Positions 1-21,143 of a stretch of 22,487 nucleotides of DNA are shown piece after piece. The DNA comes from a virus: the IMG/VR virus record IMGVR_UViG_3300025640_000063, positions 1 to 22,487 of that record, one strand, 5' to 3'. A program made the position numbers and the translations under genes. Numbering within the stretch: the stretch's first letter is position 1; the number at the start of each line of letters is the position of its first letter. The notes beneath the pieces are model-generated. The model saw only the letters and a list, made by a program, of their open reading frames with translations, had not been told where the DNA came from and made no database searches.

Positions 1-3000
1 TTCGTTAAACTATATTTAACGTCGCCTCTTTCCATTTGTTGATCAAGAATGTCTTCAAATTGTTCTGTAATAAGAACACCTAATGCTTCTTGATTTGCTT
101 TCAATGCTTGTGTAATAGGACCGTTTGTTTGAAGATCCTGGCTAATCATATCAAACCCAATCTCTTCTCCCATAGCTTTAGCTATAGAGTTCTTTCTACC
201 AGGAATTGGCTTCCCATCAGGTCCAATAATTTTACTTATAAAGAATTCATCAGAAATCTCTTGAGCAATATTTGGTACTCTACGCTGAATGTCAGCACCA
301 GATGTTTTACCTTTTGATCCTGTAGATGTTTTTTCTCTATCAATGTTATCTGAAGATTTCCACACATCACTATTAACAAACTTAGGAATAAAAACATTGT
401 CTCCAAAAGAGGTTTCAACCTTTTCTCCTTTTGCATTAAGCATGTATTTACCTCCTACAGACTTTTGAACGCCCTCAGGCATAAAAGTAAGTAGATAAGT
501 AGTAGTCATGTTCTCCAGGATAGCCTTTTTGTTAGCTTTAAGGTAGTCTTGTATCTCGTTGTTCTTAATACCACCCATCTCTTTTTTAAACGTGATGTCG
601 GCTTGTTTTCCAATTTCTTTTCTAATCTCTGCAATGATAGGTGTGACAGAAGCATTCTTGCTTATAACTGCATCAATCCTTGTTTTTAAAACTCTAACTG
701 TAGATATTACTTTTTCTTTTACTGCTTTTAGTCCATCTACACTTAATACCTTTTGCTGAATAAGATTTTTGTATTTACTTTCAGCAACAACAACATTTTC
801 ACTATCATAAGAAGTATCAGCTGTAACCCCTTTAGCTTCTGATACGTCCTCATCAAACTGAGAATCTGTTACTTTACCTGTATTCAAAGCACCTTTCATT
901 CTATTGTTTAACTGAGCCATTAAATAACCGAACAAAGAGTCGTTCTGCTTTGGATCAAATTTAGCAATATAAGGTAACATATTAGCTATGGTTTCACTAA
1001 CCATATTATCTATGTTAAATCCAGGTAATGAATTAAGATTAACAATATTACCTTTTTTAGTTTTAAATACTAATGACTTAGACTTTATAAAACCTCTTAA
1101 TATAGTATATATTTTAGGATTATCTTTGTTAAACCCGTCTGGGTTATTACCTATATCGTCAAGTTCTTTTTTAGATTTAGCTGTAACTTCTTTTAGTTCT
1201 TGGTTACTTTTTCTAGTAGGCTTTGGTTTTGACTTAGCTACTGGTTTTGCTTTTTGATTTACCGCAGACTTATCAAATAATACAATGTTCTCAGTATCTT
1301 TACCAGATCTTAAATCAGAGTCTGTGAACCTAGTTGCTTTAATACCTTTTTCAGCAAGAGCTTCGTTTAGTTTACCTAAATCTTCCTTAGTAAAAGCATT
1401 GTCAAATCTAGCATCTATTAATTCATATAAACGAGAATCGTCTACTGTCCAACCTTCTACTCTTGGTTGTATGTTAAGCTCTCTTATTACTTCGAACACT
1501 TCAGCTTCAGTAGCTATTTCAGATTCGTTTATTTTAAAGCTTTGCACTTTCCCGTTGTTGCCTTTAGCATACTCCTCTGCTTGCTCTTTGCTTTCTGAAA
1601 AGTAAACGGCACCATCTATATCATTAACGGTTTTAACTGTTCCTCCGTGAAATACTTCAATCTCCTTCTCAGGATCTTTAGATATAACCGTTGCTTCTTT
1701 TTGAGCTCTTGCAAGTTTACCTTCTATGTTAGCTTTTTGCTGCTCGTAAACATCGAAATCAATTTCACCATCATCGTATTCATTTTCAAGTTGTTCTAAC
1801 TGTTGGTTGAACTTAGTAATACTTAAGCTATCTTTTGTTGATTTATCATCTTCGTTATTAACAGCAGTTTTAACTATAGGATCTTGTACTGTTTTTCCTC
1901 CGAAGTGACTAGCTTTATTGTAGTCTTTTACAAAGCGGTACGCGCTATCTCCAGTCTGTAACTGAGCTTTAGCTGGTAAAAACTTATTAGCAAAAAACTT
2001 AATTCTATCTACTGTGCTTTCTGTTACTTTTTGACCGTCAGCCAATACATCAGACATAGCGTTCATTGCCTCTTCGTAGTAGTCTTTTTCCTTTACAAGT
2101 TCTCCTTCAATGTTTTTGCTAGTATAGCTTTCGTCAATTCTAAACTTAACTTTAGCATATAGATCAGGTTGATTTTTTTGTAAGTATGATAACAAGCTTT
2201 CACCTGCTGCATTTATATTATCTTGATTCTTATTAAAGTTTTCTCTAGCATATTTATGTAAAACTTCATGTGCAAAAATTCCTGTTCTCCTATTCTTAAT
2301 AGAAGATTCCATGTTAATTACAATTTGATTACTTCCTTTTATTGCCCCCCCCTCAAAAGCTCCATCATTTATAAGTTCCCTAAGCGTTCTTTTATCACCG
2401 GCTTGTGCAGGATCGTTTAATTTTCCAGGGTTATTCTTTTCATAAAAATCAATAAGATCTTGCTTAGTTTCTGCAACAATAAATTCAACATCTAAACCTA
2501 TATCGTCTGCAAACTTTTGAGCGTTTGTTTGCCCTTTTAGTATTCTTGCTTTATAAGTTTTATCAACGTAATTATTTAAAGCCTTATCGTTTATTTCTTT
2601 TGTAGTAGGTTCTTTTGCGCCTTCTTTTTTATTTTCTTTTAACAATACAATAGCTTCGTCAACTTCAGCTTGTTTCGCTTCAGGTGATAAATTAACAAAA
2701 TTGTTTACTACATATTGAGTGCTTTCAGCAAGCATTTTGCCCCTGTAAAGTTTATAGCCTCCTGCGCTATCCAAAGAAACGCCTTGCACGGCCGCGTTTT
2801 TTCTAGCAGCTTCCATGTCTGTCTCGTTGGTTAAGATTTGTTCTCTTTCACCCGCTAGCTTATTAAACTCACCTCTTAGTACTTTTTCTATACCAGCTAA
2901 CTGACTGGCTTTAATATTAGGATTAGCATAGGCATCAATTAATCTTTTGTTTATCTTACGTATTTTTCTGTTTACCTCACCTACTGCTTTTAAAGCCTCT

Positions 3001-5330
3001 GGAGATAAATCTGCACCTACTTTAAATAGAACCCCGTCCTCTAAAGCTTTTCCCTGTGTTATTAAATCATCTACAGTTTGTTGTGCTTCTGTAGGTAAAT
3101 TTAAGTTTGCTAAGGCTGGATCAGATGGCCCTTCAATTTTTAATTTTGTTAATTCTCGTAATTTATTAGTTATACTAGATAACTCGCTAACTTCTGCTTT
3201 ATTTGCTAATTCACTTATTATAGCTTGCTTAACACCTTTAAATGCCATAGCTGCTCCAATACCACCACCCATTAAAGCTCCTTGAGCAAAACTCTCAAGA
3301 CCACCTTCAAAATAGTTTTTGTCTTCTCCTAAAATATGAATATCACCAAAGTTTGTAACTAATGTAGTAGCAAATTCAGAACCACCTTCTACTCTAAAAC
3401 CATTCGCTAAAGTCTTACCAACGAACTCAAATCCTTCTTTTACTGTTTGAGGAGGTAGTATTTTAATACCGTCTTTCAAACCTTTCAAAAGTCTCATTGT
3501 ACCTATTTTCTCAAAAGCTACTTCAGCTATACCCGCTATTGCTTGATTACTCAATATTTTCCAGTCTGGTATATTAAGAAGTTCCGCGTCTTTACCCATT
3601 TGAGTTTCAATAGAAGCACGTTCTAATTGATCCATTTCAGGATTATCTGCTAACAGCTTATTATTGTTAGCCATTCTTTCAGCAGCATCTTTCTGCTTAA
3701 TAGCCATTCCCATACCAGATCCACCAGCTCCAGATAAAAAGAACAAAGGCATAGCCGCAGGTCCTGTCATTGCCATACCTAAAGAAGGTAATAAGTTAGG
3801 TAAGGATCCAGCAACCCATCTACCCGCGTCACTAATACTACCTATGTTGTCAACAGTTACTGCTCTTTGAAAATTTTCCATTTCCTTTTGCATATCCCCA
3901 CCTAATGAAACTAAACCAAAGTTCTGTTCCACTTGAGTAGATAACTTAACTCCACTTGACATTTTTGCTAAAGCATAAGGATCTCTAAGTAAAGCTAATT
4001 GCGCAATGCTATACGCAACATCTGTTCCCATTGACTTAGTAGCCGATAAAAGTTGTTCTAGCCTATCGTAGTTCCTATTAAAATCATCAATAGCATAAGG
4101 AACAGCTTTTTCTCTATCCGCTACCCCAGAAGCTTCCAATGTAGCCTGAGCTATTTGCAATTCATTCTGTTGCTTTAAATACGATGACTGCAGTTCAAAT
4201 GCTTGTAAATAGTTTTCTTTACTTTTAGTTGTATCGTAATTAGTTATAGCTACTTCTAGTTCGTCTCTTGTTTTAAATAAAGTTGCAGCGTTATTTTTAA
4301 AGTTAGATATTTTTTCTTCGTCTTCGGAAGCTAATGCTAATATAGCTGTTCTATCAGAAGGGCTTAATCCACTAACGTACTCAGAAGATTTATCTAAAGC
4401 ATATTGCTTTTTGCGTTCGTTGTCATACAAAGATATTTCAAAATCATCAACATCTCCTACAAATCCGTTTTTTCTCCAGTCTTTATATGCTTTAAATTCT
4501 TCAGGACTATTGAAGTCTTCTACTACAGATCGTTTTTTTATTCTTTTAATTCCACCTCCGTTATAAAGTCTAGCTTCTTCTGGTTTCATTAATCCAGACG
4601 CTCGGTACTCTTTAAACGTCATTGTAGCTGTTCTAGCATCTTCTTCTTGAAACTTCTTTAACCTGTCAGCTTTTATGCTAGCATTCAATTCGTCTCTAGT
4701 TAAGTCTGGAGCTGTTATTTGTTCAACATAGTTTTCATACGTTGAAGATTCCTTACTAGCGGTTTGACTTACGTAATTTGAATCACCGTTTTTTTCTATA
4801 TATCTATTGATTAGCTCTGCAGATTCTGCTAAATCCTCTTTGCTTTGATTTTTACCAACTTTAATAGCTGAAAGAAGATCTACTAAAACACCTAATTCCG
4901 GATCAGCTTTATCTACTCTAGACAATGATACTGCATCAAGACTACCTAAAGCGGTAACTTGCTCAACAGTTATTCCTAACCTGGAAAGCTTTTTGTTTAA
5001 GAAAGGGGCTATATCTTCCTCACTTCCTTTGCTTAATTCTTCTGCGGTAACATAGTATTTAGGATCAGTCTTTGGTAATTCCGAAGAAGTATCGTCCAAG
5101 TCTAATACCGTACCCATTGGTGTTGTTTGGTTGTTTGGCAGAGCATTTACACCTGCTGCGCTGCCTGTTGTATTTCCCGGATCTTTAATTTCTGCAATCT
5201 CCTCGGTTATAAGCGTTAGCTTAGCTTCTATTAAGTATTCTTCAAAAGTGTATCCACTTGATTCTGCTACTTCTCTAATTTGATCTTCAGTTATTACTTT
5301 CCCTGTTCCTTCTTGACGGTAATCGCTCAT
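1..5330 (-). CDS. Giant phage polyvalent protein (3' end cut by the window edge): zincin metallopeptidase plus ADP-ribosyltransferase-like domains
   Basis: One uninterrupted frame runs from ATG at 5330 to the left edge, giving at least 1776 residues with no stop seen. Visible in order: an acidic helical N-terminus (1-500); a hydrophobic Gly/Pro/Met-rich stretch from W505 to about 543; a second one at 681-697 (FAQGALMGGGIGAAMAF); the zinc-peptidase signature HEVLH at 1021-1025 with a candidate third ligand in EEAMNAM (1086-1092); an ADP-ribosyltransferase-like domain about 1220-1356 (FHGG at 1227-1230, YFSESKEQAEEYA at 1243-1255, ENIVLFD at 1347-1353); a Lys/Pro linker; and FDPKQNDSLFGYL at 1458-1470. 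Very long proteins stringing such enzymatic domains together are known as phage polyvalent proteins and are thought to be ejected with the DNA. The position after internal-virion-type genes fits. Active enzyme function is inferred. The start has an A-rich, SD-less leader 25 bases after the previous stop. Gene presence is near certain; the domain calls are fairly strong. Confidence 0.88.
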   Translation of the reverse strand, partial: MSDYRQEGTGKVITEDQIREVAESSGYTFEEYLIEAKLTLITEEIAEIKDPGNTTGSAAGVNALPNNQTTPMGTVLDLDDTSSELPKTDPKYYVTAEELSKGSEEDIAPFLNKKLSRLGITVEQVTALGSLDAVSLSRVDKADPELGVLVDLLSAIKVGKNQSKEDLAESAELINRYIEKNGDSNYVSQTASKESSTYENYVEQITAPDLTRDELNASIKADRLKKFQEEDARTATMTFKEYRASGLMKPEEARLYNGGGIKRIKKRSVVEDFNSPEEFKAYKDWRKNGFVGDVDDFEISLYDNERKKQYALDKSSEYVSGLSPSDRTAILALASEDEEKISNFKNNAATLFKTRDELEVAITNYDTTKSKENYLQAFELQSSYLKQQNELQIAQATLEASGVADREKAVPYAIDDFNRNYDRLEQLLSATKSMGTDVAYSIAQLALLRDPYALAKMSSGVKLSTQVEQNFGLVSLGGDMQKEMENFQRAVTVDNIGSISDAGRWVAGSLPNLLPSLGMAMTGPAAMPLFFLSGAGGSGMGMAIKQKDAAERMANNNKLLADNPEMDQLERASIETQMGKDAELLNIPDWKILSNQAIAGIAEVAFEKIGTMRLLKGLKDGIKILPPQTVKEGFEFVGKTLANGFRVEGGSEFATTLVTNFGDIHILGEDKNYFEGGLESFAQGALMGGGIGAAMAFKGVKQAIISELANKAEVSELSSITNKLRELTKLKIEGPSDPALANLNLPTEAQQTVDDLITQGKALEDGVLFKVGADLSPEALKAVGEVNRKIRKINKRLIDAYANPNIKASQLAGIEKVLRGEFNKLAGEREQILTNETDMEAARKNAAVQGVSLDSAGGYKLYRGKMLAESTQYVVNNFVNLSPEAKQAEVDEAIVLLKENKKEGAKEPTTKEINDKALNNYVDKTYKARILKGQTNAQKFADDIGLDVEFIVAETKQDLIDFYEKNNPGKLNDPAQAGDKRTLRELINDGAFEGGAIKGSNQIVINMESSIKNRRTGIFAHEVLHKYARENFNKNQDNINAAGESLLSYLQKNQPDLYAKVKFRIDESYTSKNIEGELVKEKDYYEEAMNAMSDVLADGQKVTESTVDRIKFFANKFLPAKAQLQTGDSAYRFVKDYNKASHFGGKTVQDPIVKTAVNNEDDKSTKDSLSITKFNQQLEQLENEYDDGEIDFDVYEQQKANIEGKLARAQKEATVISKDPEKEIEVFHGGTVKTVNDIDGAVYFSESKEQAEEYAKGNNGKVQSFKINESEIATEAEVFEVIRELNIQPRVEGWTVDDSRLYELIDARFDNAFTKEDLGKLNEALAEKGIKATRFTDSDLRSGKDTENIVLFDKSAVNQKAKPVAKSKPKPTRKSNQELKEVTAKSKKELDDIGNNPDGFNKDNPKIYTILRGFIKSKSLVFKTKKGNIVNLNSLPGFNIDNMVSETIANMLPYIAKFDPKQNDSLFGYLMAQLNNRMKGALNTGKVTDSQFDEDVSEAKGVTADTSYDSENVVVAESKYKNLIQQKVLSVDGLKAVKEKVISTVRVLKTRIDAVISKNASVTPIIAEIRKEIGKQADITFKKEMGGIKNNEIQDYLKANKKAILENMTTTYLLTFMPEGVQKSVGGKYMLNAKGEKVETSFGDNVFIPKFVNSDVWKSSDNIDREKTSTGSKGKTSGADIQRRVPNIAQEISDEFFISKIIGPDGKPIPGRKNSIAKAMGEEIGFDMISQDLQTNGPITQALKANQEALGVLITEQFEDILDQQMERGDVKYSLT
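1263..1673 (-). other. ADP-ribosyltransferase-like (ART-PolyVal-type) domain inside the giant protein
   Basis: Residues about 1220-1356 of the giant protein. The block begins EVFHGGTV (H1228 as the candidate first catalytic residue), continues with YFSESKEQAEEYA (1243-1255; Y1254 or Y1243 as the candidate second residue), and ends with a Glu at 1347 just before NIVLFD. In polyvalent-protein ART domains the usual pattern is an HGT-like strand, then a 'F-x-D/E-S-x-x-x-A-x-x-Y-A' helix start, then E-x-(I/V)-V-x-F-D near the end. All three landmarks occur here in the right order and spacing. Catalysis and the target are not known from sequence. Confidence 0.68.
2070..2270 (-). other. HEXXH zincin-type metallopeptidase core inside the giant protein
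   Basis: HEVLH at residues 1021-1025 (2256-2270) is preceded by a hydrophobic strand-like run (GIFA). A second helix with paired glutamates, YYEEAMNAMSDVL, follows about 60 residues later; E1086 or E1087 is the candidate third zinc ligand. The upstream stretch (about 900-1015) alternates strands and helices, as zincins do. HEXXH followed by a downstream Glu helix is the gluzincin-like layout seen in phage polyvalent proteins. A short HEXXH can occur by chance, but the hydrophobic context, the second Glu helix and the neighbouring ART domain make chance unlikely. Confidence 0.65.
3696..3818 (-). other. Hydrophobic Gly/Pro/Met-rich segment of the giant protein
   Basis: Residues about 505-545 start WVAGSLPNLLPSLG and continue through a run rich in Met, Ala, Phe, Leu and Gly (TGPAAMPLFFLSGAGG), then return to charged sequence. 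A shorter glycine-zipper-like hydrophobic segment lies at 681-697. Such segments in ejected phage proteins may insert into the host envelope during DNA entry. That role is inferred from composition only. Confidence 0.5.
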
Positions 5331-5355: not shown

Positions 5356-6765
5356 TTAGTTAGGTACTTTTCTTATAACACTGTCACCAGCTAAAGCTCT
5401 CCATGCTTTTTCGTTTAAAGTGTACTGTTTAGTTTTAGCATTGTATAAATACATTTTTATTTGTGCATTAGGGTCACTAGAAATGGTAGAGGGCTCTCTC
5501 AGCTTAGCGCCATATTGATCTTTCTGTATTACTGTTTTTCCGTCTACCTCTTTTGTTATATAGTCTCCTAAAACTGTCGTCTTTTTTGAAATCATATAAT
5601 CTTTTTTAGACGTCCCCGTTCTATTAAACTTCATGCCGTTGAATACAACATCATTCAGCCCCCCACCAGTTTTTCCCTTAGCTAATTGAGCTAAAGCATT
5701 ACTAGATGCAAAGTAAGTTTGGCTTTTATCTTTTGGCTTCGCTTGTTTCAATGTAAAACCAAGATTAAGTTGAGCTTTATCTAAAGCCTTACTAATATAA
5801 TAGTCTTGAATATCGTCTTGAACTTTTTCTCTCCCCTCTTTTTCTATAGCTTCTTTAAGGGTGGTGCTTTTTCCTAAACGATCTTGCCAAATGCTACTAG
5901 CATAACCATAATTTGAATTATTTTCGAATAGATCGTTACTTAAGTCTTTTGCTGCATTTTCAAGAGCAGGCATATTTACGCCATATGTCGCGGTCTCTAC
6001 TCCAGCAATCATTTCAGTACCTGTTTTAATTAAATGTTTGTTAGCTATTAATGTTTCTTTAGTTACATCTTTACCAAACCCTAATGCTGTAGAGTACATG
6101 TCTATATCAGCCGTATCGTCTTGGACCGTTTTAAACAGTGATTGATCTGGATTAGCGGCTAAGCTCTGTGTAATATTGGATATATTAAGCCTGAAAGTTT
6201 CGCCTTTATCATTTGTAGTTACCAAAACTCTACCTCCGTTTTCGTCTTCAATCTTAGTATTCTCGCCTCCATTCTTTAAATCCATACCAACTCCCATTAA
6301 GTTAATATCGTTTGAAAAACTTACAGATCCTGTTGTACCTGCTTTTAGCTGCATAGATTCATTAAGTTGATCAACAATGTATTTACCTGTAGCCATTTCT
6401 CCCACGAGCTGCTCAGGGTATTTTTGTAATCTAGTAATTTCAGCTTTGGCTTTAGCTCTTTCTTCTGGTGAAGAAAAGGTTTGGTTTAATATAGCAAATT
6501 GGCCACTTATTGCATTTTTGATTCCTTTACTTTTTTCAAATACTTGGGTTTGAAAATTACTGCTACCTTCTTTAAGATTGAGCCCCATTTTGTTAACATT
6601 GTCGTCAACAGCTTGAGAAGCAGCTAAGCCTTCTGTTATTAAAGCAGCTTTACGCCCTCTTTCAGCGGTAGCAAATGTAAGAACATCACCCGCAAGTTTG
6701 TTTATGCTTTCATACACTACAGCCCCTGTGTTGATTGGTTCTGCTTTTGGATTTCTATAACTCAT
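5356..6765 (-). CDS. Uncharacterised virion-region protein (469 aa), possible internal or cargo protein
   Basis: I do not recognise this family. The protein starts MSYRNPKAEP and is mostly polar and helical: an Ala/Lys-rich N-terminal part (about 20-150), a mixed middle with Gly/Asp/Asn-rich turns (about 155-215), and a more basic C-terminal part (about 320-469). It has no signal peptide, no transmembrane segment and no enzyme motif that I can name. It lies between the Ala/Gln-rich internal-virion-type gene (18-base gap) and the giant polyvalent gene (25-base gap), on the same strand with the same SD-less A-rich leader. This makes a packaged or ejected virion component the most likely role, by context only. 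It could also be a chaperone or assembly factor for the giant neighbour. No truncation or frameshift is evident. Confidence 0.55.
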   Translation of the reverse strand: MSYRNPKAEPINTGAVVYESINKLAGDVLTFATAERGRKAALITEGLAASQAVDDNVNKMGLNLKEGSSNFQTQVFEKSKGIKNAISGQFAILNQTFSSPEERAKAKAEITRLQKYPEQLVGEMATGKYIVDQLNESMQLKAGTTGSVSFSNDINLMGVGMDLKNGGENTKIEDENGGRVLVTTNDKGETFRLNISNITQSLAANPDQSLFKTVQDDTADIDMYSTALGFGKDVTKETLIANKHLIKTGTEMIAGVETATYGVNMPALENAAKDLSNDLFENNSNYGYASSIWQDRLGKSTTLKEAIEKEGREKVQDDIQDYYISKALDKAQLNLGFTLKQAKPKDKSQTYFASSNALAQLAKGKTGGGLNDVVFNGMKFNRTGTSKKDYMISKKTTVLGDYITKEVDGKTVIQKDQYGAKLREPSTISSDPNAQIKMYLYNAKTKQYTLNEKAWRALAGDSVIRKVPN

Positions 6766-6783
6766 ATATTATTGTTATTACTA

Positions 6784-7623
6784 TTAATTTCGACCTAAAA
6801 CTGGCGCCACCTGGTTGTCTAGTGGATTGTACGCTCCTAAATTTGCATTAATTGGTGCAGATTTTAAACTACCCCCTGCAAGTTTTGCTACCGGACGTGG
6901 CCCACTAACTAATCCGCCTACTGATGAAGCTACACCGCCTAAGCCTCCAATAGCACTACCAATAGCAGCATTTTTATTTGCTTGATGTTGAGCTACAGCT
7001 CCTTGAGCATTTTCAACTTGAGCTTGAGCTCTATCTAATGCCTCGCCTTCTCTTACCTCTGTTGCTTTAAATACGTAATCTGCGCCTTGAGCTTCTGCAT
7101 TTTGAATTCTTTGAGCTTCACTCATGTTTACATTCTGTAATCTTTGTTGCTCACCCATTTTAGCTTGATCAATTTGACCCTGGGCTGCGGCTGCGTTTTG
7201 TTGATTAGCCACTTCTTGTTGTTCAATAGATGCAGATACGCCTTTTTTGCTTTGTAAAGCGGCTTGAGCTAATGCAGTTGCACCACCCGCACTTGCACCT
7301 GTAGCAGCTAAAGTATCTAAAGTATTTGCTAATGAAATATCAGCTTCTTCTATTTGCATTTCGGCAGCTTGAGTTGCAACACCTATGTTTGCATATCTAT
7401 TTTTTAAATTACCAGAAGTGTCGGAAGCCATACTTGATAAGTTTTCCATGTTCTCATATGGATTTATAATAGCTTGTCTTGAATTTTCAAGCTCTTCTAA
7501 CCTACCTTTAGCCCTAGCTACGTCTCCTTTAGCTCCTTGAGCTTTTTGATGCGCACCAATTGCTTGAACTGTTGAACCAATTACCATCGCACTGGCCGCT
7601 ACTACTGATGTTACTACTGCCAT
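6784..7623 (-). CDS. Internal virion (ejection-type) protein, Ala/Gln-rich with hydrophobic ends
   Basis: A 279-residue protein. The N-terminus is hydrophobic (residues 1-22, AVVTSVVAASAMVIGSTVQA), followed by a charged helix (25-60). A long Ala/Gln/Glu-rich region from about 85 to 220 reads as coiled coil. Then comes a Gly/Ala-rich hydrophobic segment (219-241, ending GGLGGVASSVGGLVSG) and a Pro/Asn tail. This layout resembles the small internal virion proteins of podoviruses, such as T7 gp14-type ejection proteins, which are packed in the head and form part of a channel across the cell envelope. The match is in composition and position, not proven homology. The gene starts only 2 bases after the acetyltransferase stop codon, so the two are probably translationally linked. 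An alternative is a minor neck or head component. Confidence 0.62.
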   Translation of the reverse strand: MAVVTSVVAASAMVIGSTVQAIGAHQKAQGAKGDVARAKGRLEELENSRQAIINPYENMENLSSMASDTSGNLKNRYANIGVATQAAEMQIEEADISLANTLDTLAATGASAGGATALAQAALQSKKGVSASIEQQEVANQQNAAAAQGQIDQAKMGEQQRLQNVNMSEAQRIQNAEAQGADYVFKATEVREGEALDRAQAQVENAQGAVAQHQANKNAAIGSAIGGLGGVASSVGGLVSGPRPVAKLAGGSLKSAPINANLGAYNPLDNQVAPVLGRN

Positions 7624-8041: not shown

Positions 8042-9481
8042 TTAATATGATGACTCTACGTAGGTAGAAGACACTGCAAATAATTCTTTTTTACCTAATA
8101 AATCTGTAGTTGCATCGATAGAGAATACAACCGTAGCAAACATACCTTTTACACCAGATAAAGACTGAGAGTACACTACTTCTCCAGGTCTTGGCATACT
8201 GTTATTTTTTAAATTAGATACGTATTTGTTTTCTTTTCTATTAAAACCTGCTCTCATTTTATTATAAGGCGGGTAAGGTGTACCAAATGTAGCTTGGTAA
8301 TCAACTGGTCTAACTGGTTGTCCAGTAGCTGGGTTTATTACAAACTCTCCTTCGTTGTAACTTTTAACAGGGAAAGTAACATCGTTAAAGTTTATACCGT
8401 CATCAACACCTGTAAAGTCTGATCTAAAATCTGACATTTCCCATCCGTTACTTCCTTCATAACCTATTGTTAAAAAGTTTTTAGACATAGAAACCTTAGG
8501 GTTAAACACTGTTGTAATAGAAGAAGGAACGCTTTCTTTATATAGTTTACCATATTCAGCTCCAAAGTAATGTTTGTATAAACCATTTCTACTTAAATCC
8601 CCATCTAATTCACCACTAAAAGTAGTGTAGAAGTTATTTTTTAAACTAAATATTTGATCTGGCTTGTAACTGTATCTAGAAACCCATCCTTTAACGCTTT
8701 CGTCAAAAGCTAAAGTTTCATAATCATCGCCATTACTACTTTGTAAAGAAACAACATAAGTTTTAGTATGAACATCGAATCCACCAACAATTGTACCTAG
8801 GGTAAACGGGTTTAAATCTATGTCTTGAAATTTATCTCTAAAGAAATCTTTCATTCCATAAGATGATATTTCAGTAATACCATCAGCCGAAAGTCTTAAG
8901 ACTGCATTTCTATTTTTATCTGTAAAGTATTTTCTATAACCATACACAGCAAAACTACCTGGATCTCTTGATATACCGTATTCTCCAGCATAAGGAACAA
9001 TTTGTCCAATAACCTGAGAACCTGAAGTTGTAATCGAACTTCCTTCAGCAGAGTAAATAGCATCCTTGTCTATAAGAGCTTTACTTACTTTGTTTTCTTG
9101 TAGTATAGTTAAGTTAGTATTTTCGGCATATAGTTTTTGTATACTTCCATTTGAAGGATCTAAGCTTCTTGTTATCTCTTCACCTACTGGAAATTGATTA
9201 GTATTGTTAACACCTGTTCTAGAATTTAATATACCTGAGTATATTAAGCTACTAGATAAAATAGCGCCCGTATTAGTTTCGGTGGCTAAATAAGCTTTTG
9301 CTCCAAAATCAACTGAAGTATTATTATAACCTCCTCTAATTCTAGATTCTTCTATAATCCAATTTCTTTCTGCGTCAGCAACTAGCCCTGATGTTTTATG
9401 CCAAATAGGCACATTTTCAAGATTTACTGTTTTACGCAACAGGAAAGAATTAAAATATTTTACTTCAATGATAGCTGCCAT
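8042..9481 (-). CDS. Tail (muzzle/stabilisation-type) structural protein, homologous to the C-terminal part of a larger phage protein
   Basis: A 479-residue beta-rich protein. Recognisable blocks are WHKTSGLVADAERNWIIEES (27-46), RIRGGYNNTSVDFG (47-60), a strand SLIYSGILNSRTGVNNTNQF (78-97), NGSIQKLYAENTNLTILQEN (111-130) followed by KVSKALIDKDAIYSAEG, and EYGISRDPGSFAVYGYRKYF (167-186). I associate this set with a large tail-tip or neck protein of marine and crAss-like phages, where I remember it near the C-terminus of a single much longer chain. Here it is a separate gene, two genes downstream of the protein that carries the matching N-terminal blocks. The repeated strand-turn pattern suggests a beta-propeller-like fold. 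The start has a T/A-rich, SD-less leader. The exact virion position is inferred. Confidence 0.72.
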   Translation of the reverse strand: MAAIIEVKYFNSFLLRKTVNLENVPIWHKTSGLVADAERNWIIEESRIRGGYNNTSVDFGAKAYLATETNTGAILSSSLIYSGILNSRTGVNNTNQFPVGEEITRSLDPSNGSIQKLYAENTNLTILQENKVSKALIDKDAIYSAEGSSITTSGSQVIGQIVPYAGEYGISRDPGSFAVYGYRKYFTDKNRNAVLRLSADGITEISSYGMKDFFRDKFQDIDLNPFTLGTIVGGFDVHTKTYVVSLQSSNGDDYETLAFDESVKGWVSRYSYKPDQIFSLKNNFYTTFSGELDGDLSRNGLYKHYFGAEYGKLYKESVPSSITTVFNPKVSMSKNFLTIGYEGSNGWEMSDFRSDFTGVDDGINFNDVTFPVKSYNEGEFVINPATGQPVRPVDYQATFGTPYPPYNKMRAGFNRKENKYVSNLKNNSMPRPGEVVYSQSLSGVKGMFATVVFSIDATTDLLGKKELFAVSSTYVESSY

Positions 9482-9521
9482 ATATCTATAATTACTTGTT
9501 TTTTAACTTATTTAACTTATA

Positions 9522-10271
9522 TTAAGCTCCATTTATCCTCCATAAAGTAATGTTCATGGCCCATCGGTTAGTATCGTAACCAGCTCGTGCTTTTAGAATG
9601 TTGTCGTCAGTATAAACCGGAGCACCTGATTCGTTTAAAGAACCTACTCTACAATACATATCTTCCATATCTGTACCGGAAGTTAGATTGTAAGGTATCA
9701 TTTGAGGGATGCTGTTTACTCCTGTATGAACACCGTTGTCTGTGTTAAATGTCATAGTATAATTATCTTGTGAAAAATATCTAATAGCTGCTCTATATGT
9801 AATAATAGGATTTGTTGTAGAACCAGCAACTTCAACTCTAAGCTGATCACCAGGGCGATATCCACCACCTTGAACTACAACTTGATAATCAGTAACTACA
9901 CCACCAGCACCAAACACCATAACTTTTAGTCCTTTTCCGCCGGAAGTAGCAGGAGTGATGTTTACAACATTTGATACACTACTCCACCCATTAGGTATTC
10001 CTGAGCCTAAACCTGTAAATTGATATATTTGAGTACTACTCGTTAAGCTTTGTCCTCCTGTATTTCCGTTATACCCTTTCTTTTGAAAATAATCAGGATT
10101 AAAGTAGTACTCTATAACCCGCCTGTTGGAAGCGTCTTCTAACGTTCCGTGGTATATTAGTGTAGGTTGATACATTGTAGTTACAATGTCTGATACGTCT
10201 GTAGCGCCAATTTGCTTTGAGTTGTTGTCTGCAAGCTGTGCTAAAAGATCTCTTTTTGGTAATGATGCCAT
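9522..10271 (-). CDS. Beta-rich tail/fibre-type structural protein with a GxGY-xxGD module (249 aa)
   Basis: The N-terminal half (1-95) is polar. Residues about 100-150 form a recognisable beta module: a Ser/Gly/Lys-rich strand pair (TSGGKGLKVMVFGAGGVVT), then YQVVVQGGGYRPGDQLRVEV. The 'G-G-x-V-x-x-x-x-V-x-x-x-G-x-G-Y-x-x-G-D-x-L-x-V' pattern recurs in phage tail fibres and baseplate proteins, especially in marine phages. The C-terminal part ends WAMNITLWRINGA, a strand-rich closure. The gene is placed between the two genes that look like halves of one tail protein (26 and 40 bases from them). Surface exposure, trimerisation or receptor contact are possible but unproven. It could also be a tail-tip adaptor that joins the two neighbouring proteins. 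Confidence 0.62.
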   Translation of the reverse strand: MASLPKRDLLAQLADNNSKQIGATDVSDIVTTMYQPTLIYHGTLEDASNRRVIEYYFNPDYFQKKGYNGNTGGQSLTSSTQIYQFTGLGSGIPNGWSSVSNVVNITPATSGGKGLKVMVFGAGGVVTDYQVVVQGGGYRPGDQLRVEVAGSTTNPIITYRAAIRYFSQDNYTMTFNTDNGVHTGVNSIPQMIPYNLTSGTDMEDMYCRVGSLNESGAPVYTDDNILKARAGYDTNRWAMNITLWRINGA

Positions 10272-10297
10272 ATTAGTTGTTTATTTATTTATTGTTT

Positions 10298-13200
10298 TTA
10301 TATATCAAAAGCTGTTGAAAAAGCATTAGTAAAAGCTCCGGGTACTACATTGTTAAAAACTACCGTTGCTTCTGTGGTAAGTCCGCCTGCGTCTGTTACT
10401 GTTACCTTAAGACTAAATGTAAACAAAAAGTCAAAAGCACCTGCAAAAATACGGATCTCACCGTTTTGAGACATAGCCAAAGTGACTTGTCCTCCATTAG
10501 GGTTATTAATAGTTATTAAACTAGTATCCCCTACATTACCAATGCTAAATTCTCCATAACCTCCGAATAATTGCGGCTGTAGTGTTGACCACACATACTC
10601 AATGTTTAATTCTTTTTTTGCAACTATAAAAGTTCCGTTGTGAGCAACTATTGTAGCATACAATCCTACCATAGAAGAAAAAGCAGGGGTAACATATGTT
10701 ATTGACTCAATTGTTGGTTGACTATTACTTAAAGCTCCAGTTCTAATAAATGTAGTTACAGGCGCGGTAAAGTTAAAAACATATCCAGCAGTTTGAGTTA
10801 TAGGTACATTTAAAGTAATATTACTACCATCAACAAATGTTACGGTTGCGTTAGGTATTCCTACTCCACTTATAGTTTGCCCTACGAAAGGAGGGTTACC
10901 GGCAGTTACGGTTACTGATATTACGTTTGAATTTGTAACGGGGCTATCTAATGTAGCTGTTGTGTTATCATCTAAGTTACGCAGTCCTATTGTAAAGCTG
11001 TAGCTTTCTTTTGTAGAAGCATCTGGCCCATAGTAAAACTGTGAAGTTACGTCTTTTAATTTTAATCTATAGCCATTGTCTACAGACCCCGTTGCAATCA
11101 TTTCAAACTGACTAGTTCTATTTTGTCCAGTGGTATCTAAAACAGATAAGCTAACAAATTGTGTATTGTTTAATAGATTATTTACATTGTCAACAGGTAT
11201 TAATTCGCTAGTAATAAAAGGCGAGTCAGCGTCTCCTGTTGTAGTGCCTGTTCCATTCCAAGCTTGATTTTCATTGTGAGCGTAATCAAAAGTACTAAAG
11301 CCCATTATAGGTGTACCTACGTCTGTAATTACATTATTGTTTAATTCAGATATTAAGCCAGCTGTCGATGTTTCATAATATATTTCAATGTTAGATACAA
11401 AAGGAGTGGTCTCTGCTATAGATAATGTAGGTTCCATATGTTGATTGTCGGCACCTAATCCCCCATTATTATCCCCTATCCGCATTATTAAAGGATCCTC
11501 TGTATTTTCAAAAATAGATGGTTGTGTTGTAGTTCCACCTCCTAGCCTGTCTAAATCTTGAAACGGAGCGACAGTTGTTACGTCAAACTTATTGTTTTCA
11601 GGATAAAACGCTTGATTCCAGTTATCATTAGTAGTGTGATAGTTTTCTACCACAGGAAAAAGCACCTCGCTACTTCTGTATTTTGTTTGATTAGGGCCTA
11701 CTTCTTGTAAATCTCTAGGTACTTTATTGATATTATCACCTATTAAAACAGAGTGAGTCGCTGTGGAAGGTCCGTTGTTTAAATCCCCTTCTAAGAATCC
11801 AGGTAAGTAAACGTTGTAATATTCTTGCTGAGTTTGTTTTACAACAATTTTGTATGAGTACCACCCTGTAGGATTGGTATCTACATCATAAAGACCAGGC
11901 TCACCTGTAGATATTGAGTTAGTTAAACTTAAAGGGCTTCTAATACTTTTTATTGTTTCGTTTAATTGAATTTTAATAGAGTTACCAACATCCGCTAAAA
12001 ATGTAGTAGGAGAAGTAGCGCTCGGCCTGTAAGGCACATAAAATGTAGAAGCTCCAAAAGTACCATTCACTGAATTGTTATCAATAACACTAGATAGTAT
12101 AACATCGGATTGTCTTCCGTATCTATCGCTTAATATAAATCCTACTTGGTAGTTTCTATTTCTTTTTACAGTATGTTCAGGGTATTCTATATATGACCAG
12201 TTATTGTCAACTAAACCTGAAGAAAACTTTTGGTTAACTGTAACCTGATAATCTAAATGGTCAGGAGCCGTATGCTTGTTTACAAAGTTACCATAAATAA
12301 CTCTATTCCCACTTACTTCCTGGGCTAATGCTCTTACAGGTGTTTTGTCATAAACTCTTGTACTTTGATTTTGCGGTAATGTTCTAATTGGTTTTCTAGA
12401 TTGATAACTATATGCGTAAACATTTGTAGCTAATGATTGAAGTGCTACTTCAGCTACTGAAACAGTATCTAATACGCTAATAGCAATCTTGTCAGATTCT
12501 TTGTATAAGATGTCTATTTCTTTTATTTTGTAATCCGCATGTAAATCTTCCCCAGCACTTGGTAGGTTTATAACTAAAGATATTTGATCTACTTTGTTTT
12601 CCATGAAAGCAACTATTGTACTTGTAAAAGCCAAAGTCTCATCTCCCGCTAAAAAACTACCATCTTGTTTAGGTATAAAAGCTATTTGAGTAAACGGAGC
12701 CATAATAGAATACTCTCCGTCTTCGTACTTAAATCTATAACTAAACCTAGCAAATTTATCTTCTAAATAATTAGAATCCCCTGCGTAAAGCGGATTGTAA
12801 TCAGGATTAGCAGTAGAACCGTCTGGTAAAAGCTCGCTAGTAGCATCTTTCATAGTCGTTCTAACTACATTATCGTCGTAGGTTTTATATAAGTCTATAG
12901 GAGTATATGGAGCAAATTTAGCAACAGATACGTCATCTTCACATGAGTAATGAAAACGGTTAGCAGCTGCTCTTTTTATATTTATTTTTCTTGGTTGATT
13001 TCTATCATCCGTCCAAAAAAGAAAGTCTTCAACTATATTTATTCCGTGTATAGGGCTGGTCTCTGAAAAGTTTAAAAACTTCCCAAAAACTAACTGAGAA
13101 GATTCACCTGATGGTAAAACAGGATTATATCTTATTATAACAGAACTAGTGTCAACCCCAAAGCTACTTGCTTGATGATTGCTTAATCCATCTGTAGAGG

Positions 13201-13477
13201 TGTCTTTATAGTTCGTGTAAAACAAATATATTTCGTCATTAGCAGGATTTACAATCTTACCAATAATTTTACCATTATCATTTCCTATATTTGTTTCTGA
13301 AGATATAGGATATATATTAGTGTTTTGAAGTATGTTTTCCAAAGCACCAACATCACTGTCCTCTGAATTTGAAACAGCTATATTTAAGGCATCTTTATAT
13401 TCGTTACTAGGTATAAGCCTATCGTCTAAATCTTTGTTCATTTTAGACGCTAAAAAACTATTTTTTATTTCAGCCAT
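10298..13477 (-). CDS. Large tail (muzzle/stabilisation-type) structural protein, N-terminal part
   Basis: A 1059-residue, strand-rich protein. The N-terminus carries SKMNKDLDDRLIPSNEYKDA (11-30) followed by LNIAVSNSEDSDVGALEN, a signature I associate with the large tail or 'muzzle' proteins of crAss-like and marine phages. Later landmarks are DFLFWTDDRNQPRKINIKRA (151-170), RNRNYQVGFILSDRYGRQSD (439-458), GWYSYKIVVKQTQQEYYNVY (538-557) and DNINKVPRDLQEVGPNQ (581-597). The C-terminal third is modular: a VGQTISGVGIP-type beta module (about 845-905) and a cadherin-like end domain (about 975-1042, finishing KVTVTDAGGLTTEATVVFNN). The chain stops where I would expect relatives to continue into the blocks now found in the gene at 8042-9481. 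It starts 4 bases after the ring-type gene. The family call is confident; the exact structural role is inferred. Confidence 0.78.
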   Translation of the reverse strand: MAEIKNSFLASKMNKDLDDRLIPSNEYKDALNIAVSNSEDSDVGALENILQNTNIYPISSETNIGNDNGKIIGKIVNPANDEIYLFYTNYKDTSTDGLSNHQASSFGVDTSSVIIRYNPVLPSGESSQLVFGKFLNFSETSPIHGINIVEDFLFWTDDRNQPRKINIKRAAANRFHYSCEDDVSVAKFAPYTPIDLYKTYDDNVVRTTMKDATSELLPDGSTANPDYNPLYAGDSNYLEDKFARFSYRFKYEDGEYSIMAPFTQIAFIPKQDGSFLAGDETLAFTSTIVAFMENKVDQISLVINLPSAGEDLHADYKIKEIDILYKESDKIAISVLDTVSVAEVALQSLATNVYAYSYQSRKPIRTLPQNQSTRVYDKTPVRALAQEVSGNRVIYGNFVNKHTAPDHLDYQVTVNQKFSSGLVDNNWSYIEYPEHTVKRNRNYQVGFILSDRYGRQSDVILSSVIDNNSVNGTFGASTFYVPYRPSATSPTTFLADVGNSIKIQLNETIKSIRSPLSLTNSISTGEPGLYDVDTNPTGWYSYKIVVKQTQQEYYNVYLPGFLEGDLNNGPSTATHSVLIGDNINKVPRDLQEVGPNQTKYRSSEVLFPVVENYHTTNDNWNQAFYPENNKFDVTTVAPFQDLDRLGGGTTTQPSIFENTEDPLIMRIGDNNGGLGADNQHMEPTLSIAETTPFVSNIEIYYETSTAGLISELNNNVITDVGTPIMGFSTFDYAHNENQAWNGTGTTTGDADSPFITSELIPVDNVNNLLNNTQFVSLSVLDTTGQNRTSQFEMIATGSVDNGYRLKLKDVTSQFYYGPDASTKESYSFTIGLRNLDDNTTATLDSPVTNSNVISVTVTAGNPPFVGQTISGVGIPNATVTFVDGSNITLNVPITQTAGYVFNFTAPVTTFIRTGALSNSQPTIESITYVTPAFSSMVGLYATIVAHNGTFIVAKKELNIEYVWSTLQPQLFGGYGEFSIGNVGDTSLITINNPNGGQVTLAMSQNGEIRIFAGAFDFLFTFSLKVTVTDAGGLTTEATVVFNNVVPGAFTNAFSTAFDI

Positions 13478-16237: not shown

Positions 16238-17614
16238 CTATGTGAATAATACAAAGTTGTTTGCACCTTGTACACATAAACATCTTTCAGATAAGAAGTG
16301 AACTTCCATTGCATCTAAAGAAGATGTAGCAGCTCCGCCAACTGAACCAGTTAACCAAGACTTCATTCTTCTGTCATCAGCTTCTGAAGCTCTGTATCTT
16401 ACGTGTAAGAAAGGTCTTCTAATGTTTTTCCCAAGTGATTGGTCATAAACAGTTGAAGTTCCTGCAGGAATTAAGATACCATTTACTGAAGCATCTGTAG
16501 CGATACCTCTAGTTGAAGCATCGTTTAAGTATTTCCAGTCAGTTTTGTAGAAATCGTAAGATCCACGTCTGAAACCAGAAAAGCCTAAGTTCAATGCCAT
16601 TTGCTGATCATTGTTGAATATACCATAAGCAGATCCAGCTCCAGTGTTTCCACCGTTAAGTCCAGCTAACATATCGTCAAAAGCTAAAGCAGTTGTTCTG
16701 TTTAAGAATAACATGTTTTCTTCAATAGCTCCTTCTTTGTCTAATCCTTTAAGAATAAGATCAAAAGATGCTAAGCTTCCTGCGAATGCGTTATCAACTT
16801 GTCCTCTACCAGTTACAGCAGCGAATAAACCTTCAGTACCTTCAATTCCAGTTGGAACATCTCCGTTACCAGATTTCTTCTCACCTTCAACTACAGCCAT
16901 TTCTAAGTAATCTTCGAAACGTAATCTAGTTTCTCCTTCACCTTTTAAATACCATAAATATCCAGAATCTCCACCTTCAGTAGTTACTTCAACCCATCCA
17001 ATTTGAGATGCATCAGAACCACTTACTTCGTATTTATCCTTAATGATAATTGGTTTGTTAGAAAACTGAGTGAAAGAAGGCTCGATAGATACAGCTGTTG
17101 TATCAGTACCTTTTGCATATTCAGAACCATAAACAAATATTTTTACTCCTGTTGCTCCAACTAAAGCTGCAATTTCAGAAACACTCTTAGAGTACCCCTT
17201 AATAGTTACAGTAGTTCCGTTTGTTACTCCGTTAACGTAAGCTTTTGCAGATGCAGAACCGTCTTCCTTAATAACTAATATAGTTTGACCTATACCGATT
17301 ACGTTGTTAGCTGGTAATGATGCTAAAACACCTGCTCCACTAAGAGTAAGACCAGTGTAAGAAACATGCAATCTATTTTGCTCAGACCAAACTACTTGAT
17401 CAGACGTCATAGGAATTTCAGCTCCTACCATTTTTAAAAATCCTCCAATAGTTCTGTTACCGAATCTTTCAACCTCAGCTTCATAAACTTCTGGAATGTA
17501 CTGTTGTGCCCAGTTTGCGCTATCCGCATCTGCACTTGTAAAGTCGATATAGTTTGTTGATAATACCGATTTCTTTGCGAAGGGTACTAAACCCGTTCCA
17601 CCTGTTAATGCCAT
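16238..17614 (-). CDS. Major capsid protein (HK97-fold type)
   Basis: A 458-residue protein. Its blocks match capsid proteins of marine Bacteroidota phages: ANWAQQYIPEVYEAEVERFG (33-52), TIGGFLKMVGAEIPMTSDQV (55-74), FTQFSNKPIIIKDKYEVSGS (181-200), MALNLGFSGFRRGSYDFYKT (339-358), LIPAGTSTVYDQSLGKNIRR (381-400), PFLHVRYRASEADDRRMKSW (401-420) and the end LSERCLCVQGANNFVLFT. The long N-terminal segment and the mid-protein domain with EGETRLRFEDYLEMAV (225-240) fit an HK97-type arm, spine and A-domain layout. The order portal, scaffold, capsid supports the call. Strong terminal hairpins on the transcript fit high expression. The start is the first ATG after the previous stop, with leader AAAACATTTAATTATG. 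No separate prohead protease is seen nearby. Very likely correct. Confidence 0.92.
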   Translation of the reverse strand: MALTGGTGLVPFAKKSVLSTNYIDFTSADADSANWAQQYIPEVYEAEVERFGNRTIGGFLKMVGAEIPMTSDQVVWSEQNRLHVSYTGLTLSGAGVLASLPANNVIGIGQTILVIKEDGSASAKAYVNGVTNGTTVTIKGYSKSVSEIAALVGATGVKIFVYGSEYAKGTDTTAVSIEPSFTQFSNKPIIIKDKYEVSGSDASQIGWVEVTTEGGDSGYLWYLKGEGETRLRFEDYLEMAVVEGEKKSGNGDVPTGIEGTEGLFAAVTGRGQVDNAFAGSLASFDLILKGLDKEGAIEENMLFLNRTTALAFDDMLAGLNGGNTGAGSAYGIFNNDQQMALNLGFSGFRRGSYDFYKTDWKYLNDASTRGIATDASVNGILIPAGTSTVYDQSLGKNIRRPFLHVRYRASEADDRRMKSWLTGSVGGAATSSLDAMEVHFLSERCLCVQGANNFVLFT

Positions 17615-18737: not shown

Positions 18738-21143
18738 TCACCTAGGTTCAAATTGCTCTAGGCCAAATCCGCCGAGGTTGTCAAACCCTGCAGATTCAAA
18801 ATTCTTTGGTAAAGAATCGTTTTTTCTTTGGTCAATTAATTCACTTTGTTGTGACGCTTGTATTTTTGTTCTATCGTCTTTACGATCTTCTTTATACTTT
18901 TCGTTGCCCTGTTTTACACCGGACTGAGCTTGAGCTAGTTGCATATTATACTGGAATTCAACTTCCATTAATTGCTTTTTAATCTCTGCTTCCATCTGCA
19001 TTCTTTGTATATCAAACTGAGATTTTGATTGCTCTATTTGTATTTTAGTTTGCGATAATGCTTGTTGCTTTTGTACCTCTGCCATAGCTGCTGCTTCTGA
19101 TGCTTTAGCATTTGCCTGAGCCTGTGCTTGTATATTTGCTTGCTGAGCCGCTTGATCTCTTTCTTCTTTTTTCTGTCTTTTAAACTTAATAGATTCGTTA
19201 GCTAATTTAATATTTTTAATTTCACGAATATCAATAGCATCTTCTAAGTTAATACCACCTGATTGTAATGCTACTTGTATGTTTTGTTCTAATAGCTGTT
19301 TAGCTTCGTCATCCGGTTCTAACTCTAAGTAAATTCCAAAGTCATGCAGATTTAATGTACTTATTTCAGCAAGTATTTCAGCGTTGTATATTGACACACT
19401 GTTGTTCATAGAATTACGGGTTAAAGGAAACTCTAATAAATCTGCTATTTTTAATGAAATGTTTTCACACGTTTTAAGTGTTAAATATAAACCAGCCTGT
19501 GTTATATGTCTAGTAGCTACATTAGATGCGTTAGCGGCCATCTTTTGAAGCCCTACTAATGAGTTTTTATCAGGTTGACTACCATCTCTTGCTTCGTTCA
19601 ATCCGGTTACATCCCTAATCATTTGCAAATAATACTGATAAGTATTTATAAGAGAACTTATTTTTCCTTGACCAGATGATGACGCTAATTCCTGCACAGG
19701 TATTTTACCTCTGTTCATTTCACCGTCTTGCGTTAAAGATCTACCAACAACACTACCTGTTTGAAAGTACATATTTAAAGCCTCTGCCGGATTGTAAGTT
19801 GTTCCATTACCTAAATCAACTTCCGCTAAACCGTCCATATCTAAAAATACACCATCCGGTACTATTCTAGACATAACTTGTTGTAGCTTTAAGTGAGTCA
19901 ATTGAATCATATCAGCAAACCCTGTTATACGACTAACTAAAGATTCTATCTTACCCTTATATACTCTAGGGGCACAAATAGAAAAGTTCATAGCTACTTT
20001 AGTAGTATCTGCAAATGGTCTTGTCATATTCTCTGACATTTCCCACTTTAACATTGTATTGTGTCCTAAAAGCTTAACTCCTGTATATAGAACCTCTATA
20101 GTTCTAGACACCTTCTTAAACGTATCGTTTTCAGGTGGGTTAAACTCATCTGTTTTTTCAATTGCTTTTTCAAGACCTTGATCAGTTACTTTAATTTTAA
20201 AGACCTGGTGCATATAAGTCTTGTATTCAAAGTACAATAAAGAAACCTTGTCATCATCACCGCTACCATACCCACTTGTATAGTTACGTGAACTTGACAT
20301 TTTTTCGACATCTTTTAATTGTTCGTTCGTTAACAAAGGAAATTCTTTTGCTACTTCAGCTATTGTTACTTCTTTTACTTCACCTACATAATATAAATCC
20401 TCATAATTAGGATCTTCTGTGTAAGAGTAAACTATAGTTGCAGGATCTACATAATCAATTTTTATTCCTTCAGCTTTATTAAAACTAGTCTTAGTAGCAG
20501 CAATACCTATAACAGTTAAATCGTAGTCTAATCTACGCTTAGTTAAGGTATACTTATTATTGTCTAAAACATTGTTTATTATTTCTTCTTGAGCTATTTC
20601 AATATTCTGCTTATAGTCAAGTTGCATGTGAAGTGAAAGCTGATTTTCGTTTTCAGGAAGCATAGAAGGATCCTCAACGTTATAAGTATCTATACCAAGT
20701 TGAGACATCATCTGCTCGTTGAACTGTTTGGTTTGCATATCTGCTACAATAGCTGAAACGTACTCTGTTCTTTTCTTGCTAGATTCAGGATCTTGAGCGT
20801 AAGCTTTTATGTCATAAGATTTTTGAGACATACCGTTTACAACAATATCTACAAACTTAGGAATAATAGGTACTGGCTTCCAATCCAAATTAAGATAAGA
20901 TAAATCACCATTTATAGACAACTCATCCTTGTATTTTTGAATTGATTGCTCTCCTCTAGCGTATAATCTAAGCTGGTGAAAAGCACCGTAATTAGATGAA
21001 AACCGATTTGCCGACGTTCTAGTGCCTCCAAACCATTCGTGTTCTATAGCTCTAGCTACTGCTAATCCATATTCTGAACCTCCTTTTTCTTCATCGGTAA
21101 CAGCTTGACTAGGAAAAGAGCTATTGTAATTAGTTTCTATCAT
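18738..21143 (-). CDS. Portal protein with long Gln/Ala-rich C-terminal tail
   Basis: An 801-residue protein, long for a portal but in the range of crAss-like and related portals. The N-terminal third contains a clip/stem-like mixed region (FHQLRLYARGEQSIQKYKD, about 55-73; WKPVPIIPKFVDIVVNGM, about 87-104). The middle includes TYNPAEALNMYFQTGSVVGR and the portal-typical helix-turn block YYLQMIRDVTGLNEARDGSQ (about 500-520). From about 655 to 755 the chain is an almost pure Gln/Ala/Lys/Glu coiled coil, which would form an extended barrel or crown inside the head. Its ATG abuts the terminase stop codon with no spacer, so expression is likely coupled. The order terminase, portal, scaffold, capsid is the classic head-module order. 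No frameshift or truncation is seen. Confidence 0.9.
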   Translation of the reverse strand: MIETNYNSSFPSQAVTDEEKGGSEYGLAVARAIEHEWFGGTRTSANRFSSNYGAFHQLRLYARGEQSIQKYKDELSINGDLSYLNLDWKPVPIIPKFVDIVVNGMSQKSYDIKAYAQDPESSKKRTEYVSAIVADMQTKQFNEQMMSQLGIDTYNVEDPSMLPENENQLSLHMQLDYKQNIEIAQEEIINNVLDNNKYTLTKRRLDYDLTVIGIAATKTSFNKAEGIKIDYVDPATIVYSYTEDPNYEDLYYVGEVKEVTIAEVAKEFPLLTNEQLKDVEKMSSSRNYTSGYGSGDDDKVSLLYFEYKTYMHQVFKIKVTDQGLEKAIEKTDEFNPPENDTFKKVSRTIEVLYTGVKLLGHNTMLKWEMSENMTRPFADTTKVAMNFSICAPRVYKGKIESLVSRITGFADMIQLTHLKLQQVMSRIVPDGVFLDMDGLAEVDLGNGTTYNPAEALNMYFQTGSVVGRSLTQDGEMNRGKIPVQELASSSGQGKISSLINTYQYYLQMIRDVTGLNEARDGSQPDKNSLVGLQKMAANASNVATRHITQAGLYLTLKTCENISLKIADLLEFPLTRNSMNNSVSIYNAEILAEISTLNLHDFGIYLELEPDDEAKQLLEQNIQVALQSGGINLEDAIDIREIKNIKLANESIKFKRQKKEERDQAAQQANIQAQAQANAKASEAAAMAEVQKQQALSQTKIQIEQSKSQFDIQRMQMEAEIKKQLMEVEFQYNMQLAQAQSGVKQGNEKYKEDRKDDRTKIQASQQSELIDQRKNDSLPKNFESAGFDNLGGFGLEQFEPR

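Follow-up and report, generated by a model that had tools for sequence, protein, structure and literature searches.

The giant protein encoded at the edge of the window (the whole of the virus record IMGVR_UViG_3300025640_000063, 22,487 bp) is probably an ejection, or cargo, protein from a podovirus that infects Bacteroidota and has a crAss-type tail. On this reading it belongs to the polyvalent proteins of phage type, its gene occupies the slot of gp16 and of the virion RNA polymerases (vRNAPs), and it would act at entry in the manner proposed below. The core of its family consists of a zincin and a C-terminal domain of about 620 residues, and an ADP-ribosyltransferase (ART) is an accessory cassette. 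Judged from sequence, the best reading is that a sigma-70 region-2-like domain, which the preliminary description of this DNA had missed, is the conserved element of the giant that makes the most direct candidate for early takeover.

The giant gene among the virion genes

All the large genes of the window lie on one strand, in the order terminase, portal, capsid, ring-type structural proteins, muzzle, three smaller genes and, last, the giant. The features of this neighbourhood are listed here with their window coordinates.

18738..21143, minus strand: portal protein (phrog_6547, E 7e-145)
16238..17614, minus strand: virion structural protein of the MCP family, likely the major capsid protein (phrog_13704, E 1.5e-95; the Calle_1 homologue is annotated major capsid protein)
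8042..13477, minus strand: crAss-type muzzle, encoded by two genes, 8042-9481 and 10298-13477, that flank a 249-aa ORF (PF25729, E 4e-7; phrog_14478)
6784..7623, minus strand: 279-aa protein, placed like the first ejection protein (T7 gp14) and homologous to phi38:1 gp99 (E 1e-24) and phi18:3 gp120 (E 7e-9)
5356..6765, minus strand: 469-aa protein, placed by gene order like the second ejection protein (T7 gp15 / N4 gp51), with a borderline match to phi38:1 gp100, 'structural protein' (E 0.004)
3..5330, minus strand: giant ejection/polyvalent protein, residues 1-1776 of about 3,014; its 3' end lies beyond the window and continues in contig L004
2832..3554, minus strand: N-terminal helical region of the giant, residues 593-833, homologous to the giant structural protein of Flavobacterium phage elemo and, via elemo, to phi18:3 gp123 and phi38:1 gp101

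The frame of the giant gene runs through 1,776 codons with no stop and is open at the window edge, which bears out the earlier statement that it has at least 1776 residues. The missing end is supplied by the IMG/VR contig L004, which encodes the giant from residue 1374 on and is identical to the window at 401 of the 403 residues of the overlap (1374-1776). The joined chain has about 3,014 residues (1,373 + 1,641), a length based on the 403 residues common to the window and L004, that is, on two contigs and not one. Three further contigs, L002, L003 and L005, carry relatives of the same region at 72-78% identity, and the giant of L005 is complete, with 2,545 residues. In L003, frameshifts or stops break the giant and portal genes, which looks like poor sequence quality and not biology.

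The portal and capsid proteins of the window match those of cultured Flavobacterium, Cellulophaga, Maribacter and Tenacibaculum phages, with up to ~52% identity, and the muzzle bears the crass C-terminal domain, a Crassvirales feature (PF25729, above its cut-off). A flavobacterial or other Bacteroidota host, in keeping with the earlier attribution to a Bacteroidota phage, is supported. The division of the muzzle into two genes is common to many metagenomic relatives; in cultured relatives, for instance phi38:1, it is a single gene.

The 279- and 469-aa genes of the ejection slots stand directly upstream of the giant, which was rightly placed downstream of internal-virion-type genes, and phi18:3 gp120, the homologue of the 279-aa protein, was detected by virion MS/MS. 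A giant gene also follows the homologues of the smaller genes in each of the six cultured relatives examined (3,860 codons in ctfjg026, 3,694 aa in elemo, 1,829 in Panino, 1,691 in phi38:1, 1,935 in phi18:3 and 2,482 in Gundel_1), and the order muzzle, 279-aa homologue, giant is kept in most metagenomic relatives with upstream sequence. The record annotation of the same-slot giant of Cellulophaga phage phi18:3, gp123, reads 'based on experimental MS/MS proteomics analysis'. A chain of N-terminal homologies joins this protein to the giant studied here: window to elemo, E 4e-7; L002 to elemo, E 4e-8; elemo to phi18:3, E 6e-13. Likewise, the 'structural protein' Gundel1_74 matches phi18:3 at its N-terminus (E 4e-14) and the C-terminal profile of the family at its C-terminus (E 3.4e-11, hhalign probability 94.7%). 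The resemblance between the MS/MS-proven gp123 and the window giant is confined to the N-terminal part, gp123 being without the zincin, sigma-like and C-terminal domains. Homology to virion proteins and gene order indicate that the giant is probably packaged in the virion and ejected. Of the earlier claim that it is packaged and injected, packaging and ejection are what this evidence argues for, and injection with its host targets belongs to the mechanism proposed below.

The 469-aa protein gave a weak match to Permuted_GreAB-C (E 8e-4, below cut-off), that is, to a transcription-factor-like domain adjoining the sigma-bearing giant. Between the muzzle and the ejection genes, 7626-8027 encodes a 133-aa protein (phrog_17252) that reads like a small acetyltransferase and has no Pfam match; the syntenic gene of ctfjg026 is annotated as an acetyltransferase subunit.

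A conserved core and exchangeable modules

A 675-residue C-terminal query retrieved 381 IMG/VR loci, of which 80 were kept; these, together with loci found through the zincin, furnished 93 distinct chains of more than 2,000 aa for comparison (2,113-4,084 aa long). In GTDB genomes, the C-terminal domain was found on MAG contigs only, mostly assigned to Bacteroidota, which are read as binned phage contigs. When the giant chain and its parts were compared by tblastn with 50,697 phage records, no match was obtained, and a divergent C-terminal query gave weak matches to Gundel_1 and one faecal record only. With 381 loci bearing its C-terminal domain, the family is a large one, uncultured and nearly without GenBank phage matches. 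The modules recognised in the window's part of the chain are as follows.

1896..2450, minus strand: zincin-like metallopeptidase domain, residues 961-1145 (H1021, E1022, H1025, E1087), from motif conservation and a model with pLDDT ~90
2256..2270, minus strand: HEVLH motif, residues 1021-1025
1260..1667, minus strand: ART-PolyVal-like ADP-ribosyltransferase cassette, residues 1222-1357, with the putative triad H1228, Y1243, D1353
801..1133, minus strand: sigma-70 region-2-like domain, residues 1400-1510, from the family profile and from Pfam Sigma70_r2 in the giants of four relatives at the homologous place
3..800, minus strand: conserved domain, residues 1511-1776, truncated at the end of the window; of the 75 metagenomic relatives that were tiled, ~50 have it

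Exactly one HExxH motif occurs in 91 of the 93 family members; after shuffling, the motif appears in 0.18% of the window-protein sequences and in 0.43% of the family members. In 74 non-redundant segments, which were selected by HExxH and not by E1087, this glutamate, located 62 residues past the last HExxH histidine, is invariant, as are H1021, E1022 and H1025, and Y1069 is kept in 91%. HExxH plus Glu is the arrangement given for the metallopeptidases (MPTases) of polyvalent proteins (Iyer 2017, PMC5512222). In the predicted model of residues 905-1376, pLDDT is near 90 over the zincin, and HExxH and E1087 both lie in helices. A Foldseek search of the PDB with the zincin and ART model returned no significant match, and PDB sequence searches with the zincin and ART profiles returned unconvincing matches only. 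The zincin model weakly resembles the metallopeptidase domain of lethal factor (Z 6.0 over 176 residues, in a comparison dominated by a helical hairpin), and some relatives match Peptidase_M78 (best E 2e-7). The dN/dS of the domain, about 0.1, indicates purifying selection. The zincin occurs in nearly every member, irrespective of the other modules on the chain, and so a shared function in processing or assembly would suit it at least as well as that of a host-directed protease; both processing and host-directed roles are listed for polyvalent MPTases (Iyer 2017, PMC5512222).

For residues 1222-1357 the best Pfam family is ART-PolyVal (PF18760), with E values of 0.0027 for the window, 0.0011 for L002 and 0.0005 for L003, and scores of 18.9-21.3 bits that do not reach the curated cut-off of 31.2 bits. 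The match was repeated for the window, L003 and L047 in an unbiased Pfam search of whole contigs. In polyvalent ARTs, a histidine lies in strand 1, a tyrosine in strand 2 and an aspartate in strand 5 (Iyer 2017, PMC5512222), and H1228, Y1243 and D1353 fit this H-Y-D rule both in the alignment and in the strand order of the model. E1347 had been considered as the third residue and was rejected in favour of D1353, which is conserved in all five copies, because L002 has a lysine at 1347 and the survey gives an aspartate in strand 5. The triad is kept in the window, L002, L003 and L047; L111 keeps the aspartate alone, having lost H and Y. The ART part of the model has a pLDDT of 51-88 and structural resemblances that are weak (chain 9k3a_B of the cyanophage A4 pre-ejectosome, Z 7.0; KptA, 9ldi, Z 6.1), and a dN/dS of 0.07-0.14 indicates purifying selection. 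Both enzyme-like domains of the preliminary description are probably present, then (HExxH with E1087; ART-PolyVal with H-Y-D), with the qualification that the ART-PolyVal match lies below cut-off.

Among the phages examined, the five just named are the only ones with an ART. The sibling L005 is without it, the same linkers being joined cleanly, and in L047 a related ART is nested in a HAD-like domain (L047 12956-13537), between ...VLYTMP and KLTAAEFA.... The cassette and the remainder of the gene have the same G+C (0.358 and 0.348). From its distribution in these sequences, the ART appears as what it is taken to be here, a mobile, variable add-on cassette. In L072 another insertion occupies the same loop of the HAD-like domain as the ART of L047, and the loop looks like a hot spot for insertions. 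A protease and an ART had been seen as the essence of a host-takeover effector, and the rarity of the ART, its clean absence from L005 and the near-universal zincin speak against this view. Nor were the hydrophobic segments mentioned earlier recovered: no 19-residue stretch in the window's part of the chain reaches a mean hydropathy of 1.4.

Exchange extends to other parts of the chain. An exchangeable slot precedes the C-terminal domain and contains a HAD-like motif in 44 of the 93 members, P-loop/zeta-toxin-like domains in 3 of the 42 relatives scanned (best E 3e-15) and an ART in L111 and L047. P-loop motifs were seen in this slot in L073, L074, L080, L091 and L133, the 3 matches among the 42 relatives being to zeta-toxin/AAA_33. 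At the other end, L005 resembles the window before the zincin over its first ~92 residues only, and its N-terminus matches phrog_32588 (E 3.5e-38) and ctfjg026. In L005 (10001-12060) the N-terminal ~700 residues of the giant are a different, phrog_32588-like version, and over the C-terminal two thirds its identity to the window chain (L004 copy) is ~70%.

The ~620-residue C-terminal domain is present in every member examined and is predicted to be all-helical (pLDDT 79). Among BFVD entries, its model matched proteins that bear the names large polyvalent-associated, ART-PolyVal and internal virion protein D. Against the PDB it gave nothing above Z 5.3, Pfam found no LPD domain in these ~620 residues, and hhalign of the zincin and C-terminal profiles against N4 gp50 gave nothing. 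Early weak Pfam matches to GvpG, RPM2 and DUF885 were rejected as chance coiled-coil or helical matches. A zincin, an ART-like domain, a sigma-like domain and a helical C-terminus on one chain of ~3,014 residues, with TerL, portal, capsid and muzzle genes upstream, agree with the polyvalent-protein class to which the giant had been assigned.

The sigma-like domain and a possible mechanism at entry

The sigma-like domain comes directly after the ART in the window and was recognised in 72 of the 93 members, where it starts 162-373 residues past HExxH; F-D-P and G-Y-I positions are conserved in it. In a first profile, built from 27 members, sigma factors made up 7 of the 9 PDB matches; the underlying alignment was anchored on a motif pattern, and because such anchoring could bias the result, it was replaced by one rebuilt without any pattern from the window segment. 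With the rebuilt profile, sigma factors accounted for all 9 of the 9 PDB matches, aligned over region 2, with a modest best E of 5.8e-4. Independently of these profiles, a scan of 45 contigs with Pfam Sigma70_r2 (PF04542) placed this family inside the giant frame of L033 (24.3 bits for a cut-off of 24) and in the giants of L097, L102 and L079 (E 5.6e-6 to 1.1e-4), all four positions falling within the aligned sigma-like segment. The window's own copy, taken alone, gave no significant Pfam match, and the domain was not found in the eight cultured phage records searched. Pfam scans recognised no sigma region 4, the -35 binding domain, on the giant chain, a result that a diverged copy could escape. 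Several relatives also encode a separate sigma factor of ~255 aa (L004 contig, 16541-16771, for example).

In N4 and crAss-like phages, a polymerase travels inside the virion. A search for T7-type RNA polymerase (PF00940), in which the N4 positive control was detected, the window chain being incomplete and the relatives complete, found none in 29 related records, and a phi14:2 RNA polymerase query for the crAss-type enzyme found nothing in contigs that are incomplete, there being no outside positive control for that query. An ejected sigma-like domain is attractive because the phages seem to lack a polymerase and hence to need the host's.

The mechanism that I consider probable would run as follows. 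Late in infection the giant chain would be synthesised and, by means of its terminal regions, loaded into the head; it would exit through the tail together with the 279- and 469-aa proteins; the zincin may trim the chain or release parts of it. In the cell, the sigma-like domain would bind RNA polymerase, probably that of the host, in favour of the incoming genome, and the ART, where present, would modify the host, as T4 Alt is known to do and as polyvalent ARTs have been proposed to do. A bolder version is a tentative proposal, and I would give it rather less than even chances: widespread uncultured aquatic phages would eject a giant that, as it enters, binds the RNA polymerase of the host with its sigma-2-like domain and redirects transcription to the incoming DNA as an injected sigma mimic, in place of the polymerase injected by N4 and crAss phages or of a modifying enzyme alone as in T4 Alt; the ART, when present, would act on the same polymerase. 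A region-2 fragment without region 4 may bind the clamp without promoter choice, so that inhibition or retention of the host polymerase is as possible as its activation.

The same modules can be read in other ways. The zincin and the ART might both be host-directed effectors on one injected chain, the remainder being a delivery scaffold, and this reading gains from the catalytic residues kept in both window domains, from the purifying selection on both, and from the 2017 survey, according to which the MPTases and ARTs of injected polyvalent proteins may be directed at the host (Iyer 2017, PMC5512222). It is nevertheless unlikely, since it leaves the conserved sigma-like domain out of account, and since the zincin accompanies almost every chain whatever its other content, as suits common processing, whereas the ART is found in few members and is missing from the sibling L005. 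Invariant HExxH and E1087, together with a dN/dS of about 0.1 in zincin and ART, count against an ejection protein that, like T7 gp16, has a mechanical function only, and in which the enzyme-like and sigma-like domains would be remnants or structural elements. The gene slot, the helical C-terminus and the loss of H and Y of the ART triad in L111 would suit such a protein, but enzyme modules have been gained repeatedly, including P-loop/zeta-like domains with E down to 3e-15, and I regard this reading as improbable. The last reading, in which the giant is an intracellular protein of late infection that stays out of the particle, draws on the fact that the direct virion MS/MS data concern homologues only; it is contradicted by slot, synteny and N-terminal homology to virion proteins so detected, and seems highly improbable. 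An ejected polyvalent protein with a sigma-like domain is the reading retained here.

Relation to known ejection and polyvalent proteins

The polyvalent-protein class and the pairing of MPTase and ART were both already known from the 2017 survey (PMC5512222). The giant resembles the phage-type polyvalent proteins described there: these too are huge single chains in which a zincin-like MPTase, an ART of the H-Y-D type and helical domains that lack characterisation occur together, their genes lie with those of the virion, and their injection is predicted. The giant differs in that most members of its family carry a sigma-70 region-2-like domain; the term 'sigma factor' is absent from the main text of the survey (PMC5512222). 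T4 Alt is also a packaged ADP-ribosyltransferase and, as cited in PMC5512222, acts on host RNA polymerase at entry, but it is a protein on its own, and as an ART of the R-S-E type it belongs to a different clade.

Two smaller proteins followed by the largest is the order of T7 gp14-gp15-gp16 and of N4 gp52-gp51-gp50. T7 gp16 is the third and largest of three consecutive ejection proteins, and its likeness to the giant is one of gene slot alone. With N4 gp50 and other Schitoviridae vRNAPs the likeness goes further: these are ejected proteins of ~3,500 residues, encoded by the last of the ejection genes, and an HExxH domain precedes their large, helical C-terminal domain (PMC12633501). The giant differs in having a sigma-like domain and no detected T7-type RNA polymerase domain, and no sequence similarity to it was found in N4 C1 or C2. 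The cargo proteins of Crassvirales (phicrAss001 gp45-gp50; phi14:2 g065-g069) are likewise encoded directly after the muzzle, some of them giant, and are stored in head and tail (PMC10172136); theirs, however, include a catalytic RNA polymerase, and none was recognised in the window or its relatives. The giants of Pachyviridae, Pervagoviridae and Elemovirus (phi18:3 gp123, Gundel1_74, phi38:1 gp101, elemo gp18) share the slot and the N-terminal homology, and of these Gundel1_74 also has an HExxH and part of the C-terminal domain in common with the family; no sigma-like domain or ART was recognised in them.

As far as a partial literature search goes, the novelty lies first of all in the sigma-2-like domain, and also in the lineage and in the conserved C-terminal domain, that search having found no report of an injected polyvalent protein bearing a sigma domain. 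Since enzyme cassettes are swapped into a fixed ejection scaffold, the family is a source of candidate host-modifying enzymes. The sigma-like domain, if active, could let the virus influence host transcription ahead of its own protein synthesis, and a virion protein equipped with it would, if this is true, represent a third strategy beside those of the polymerase-carrying N4 and crAss-like phages.
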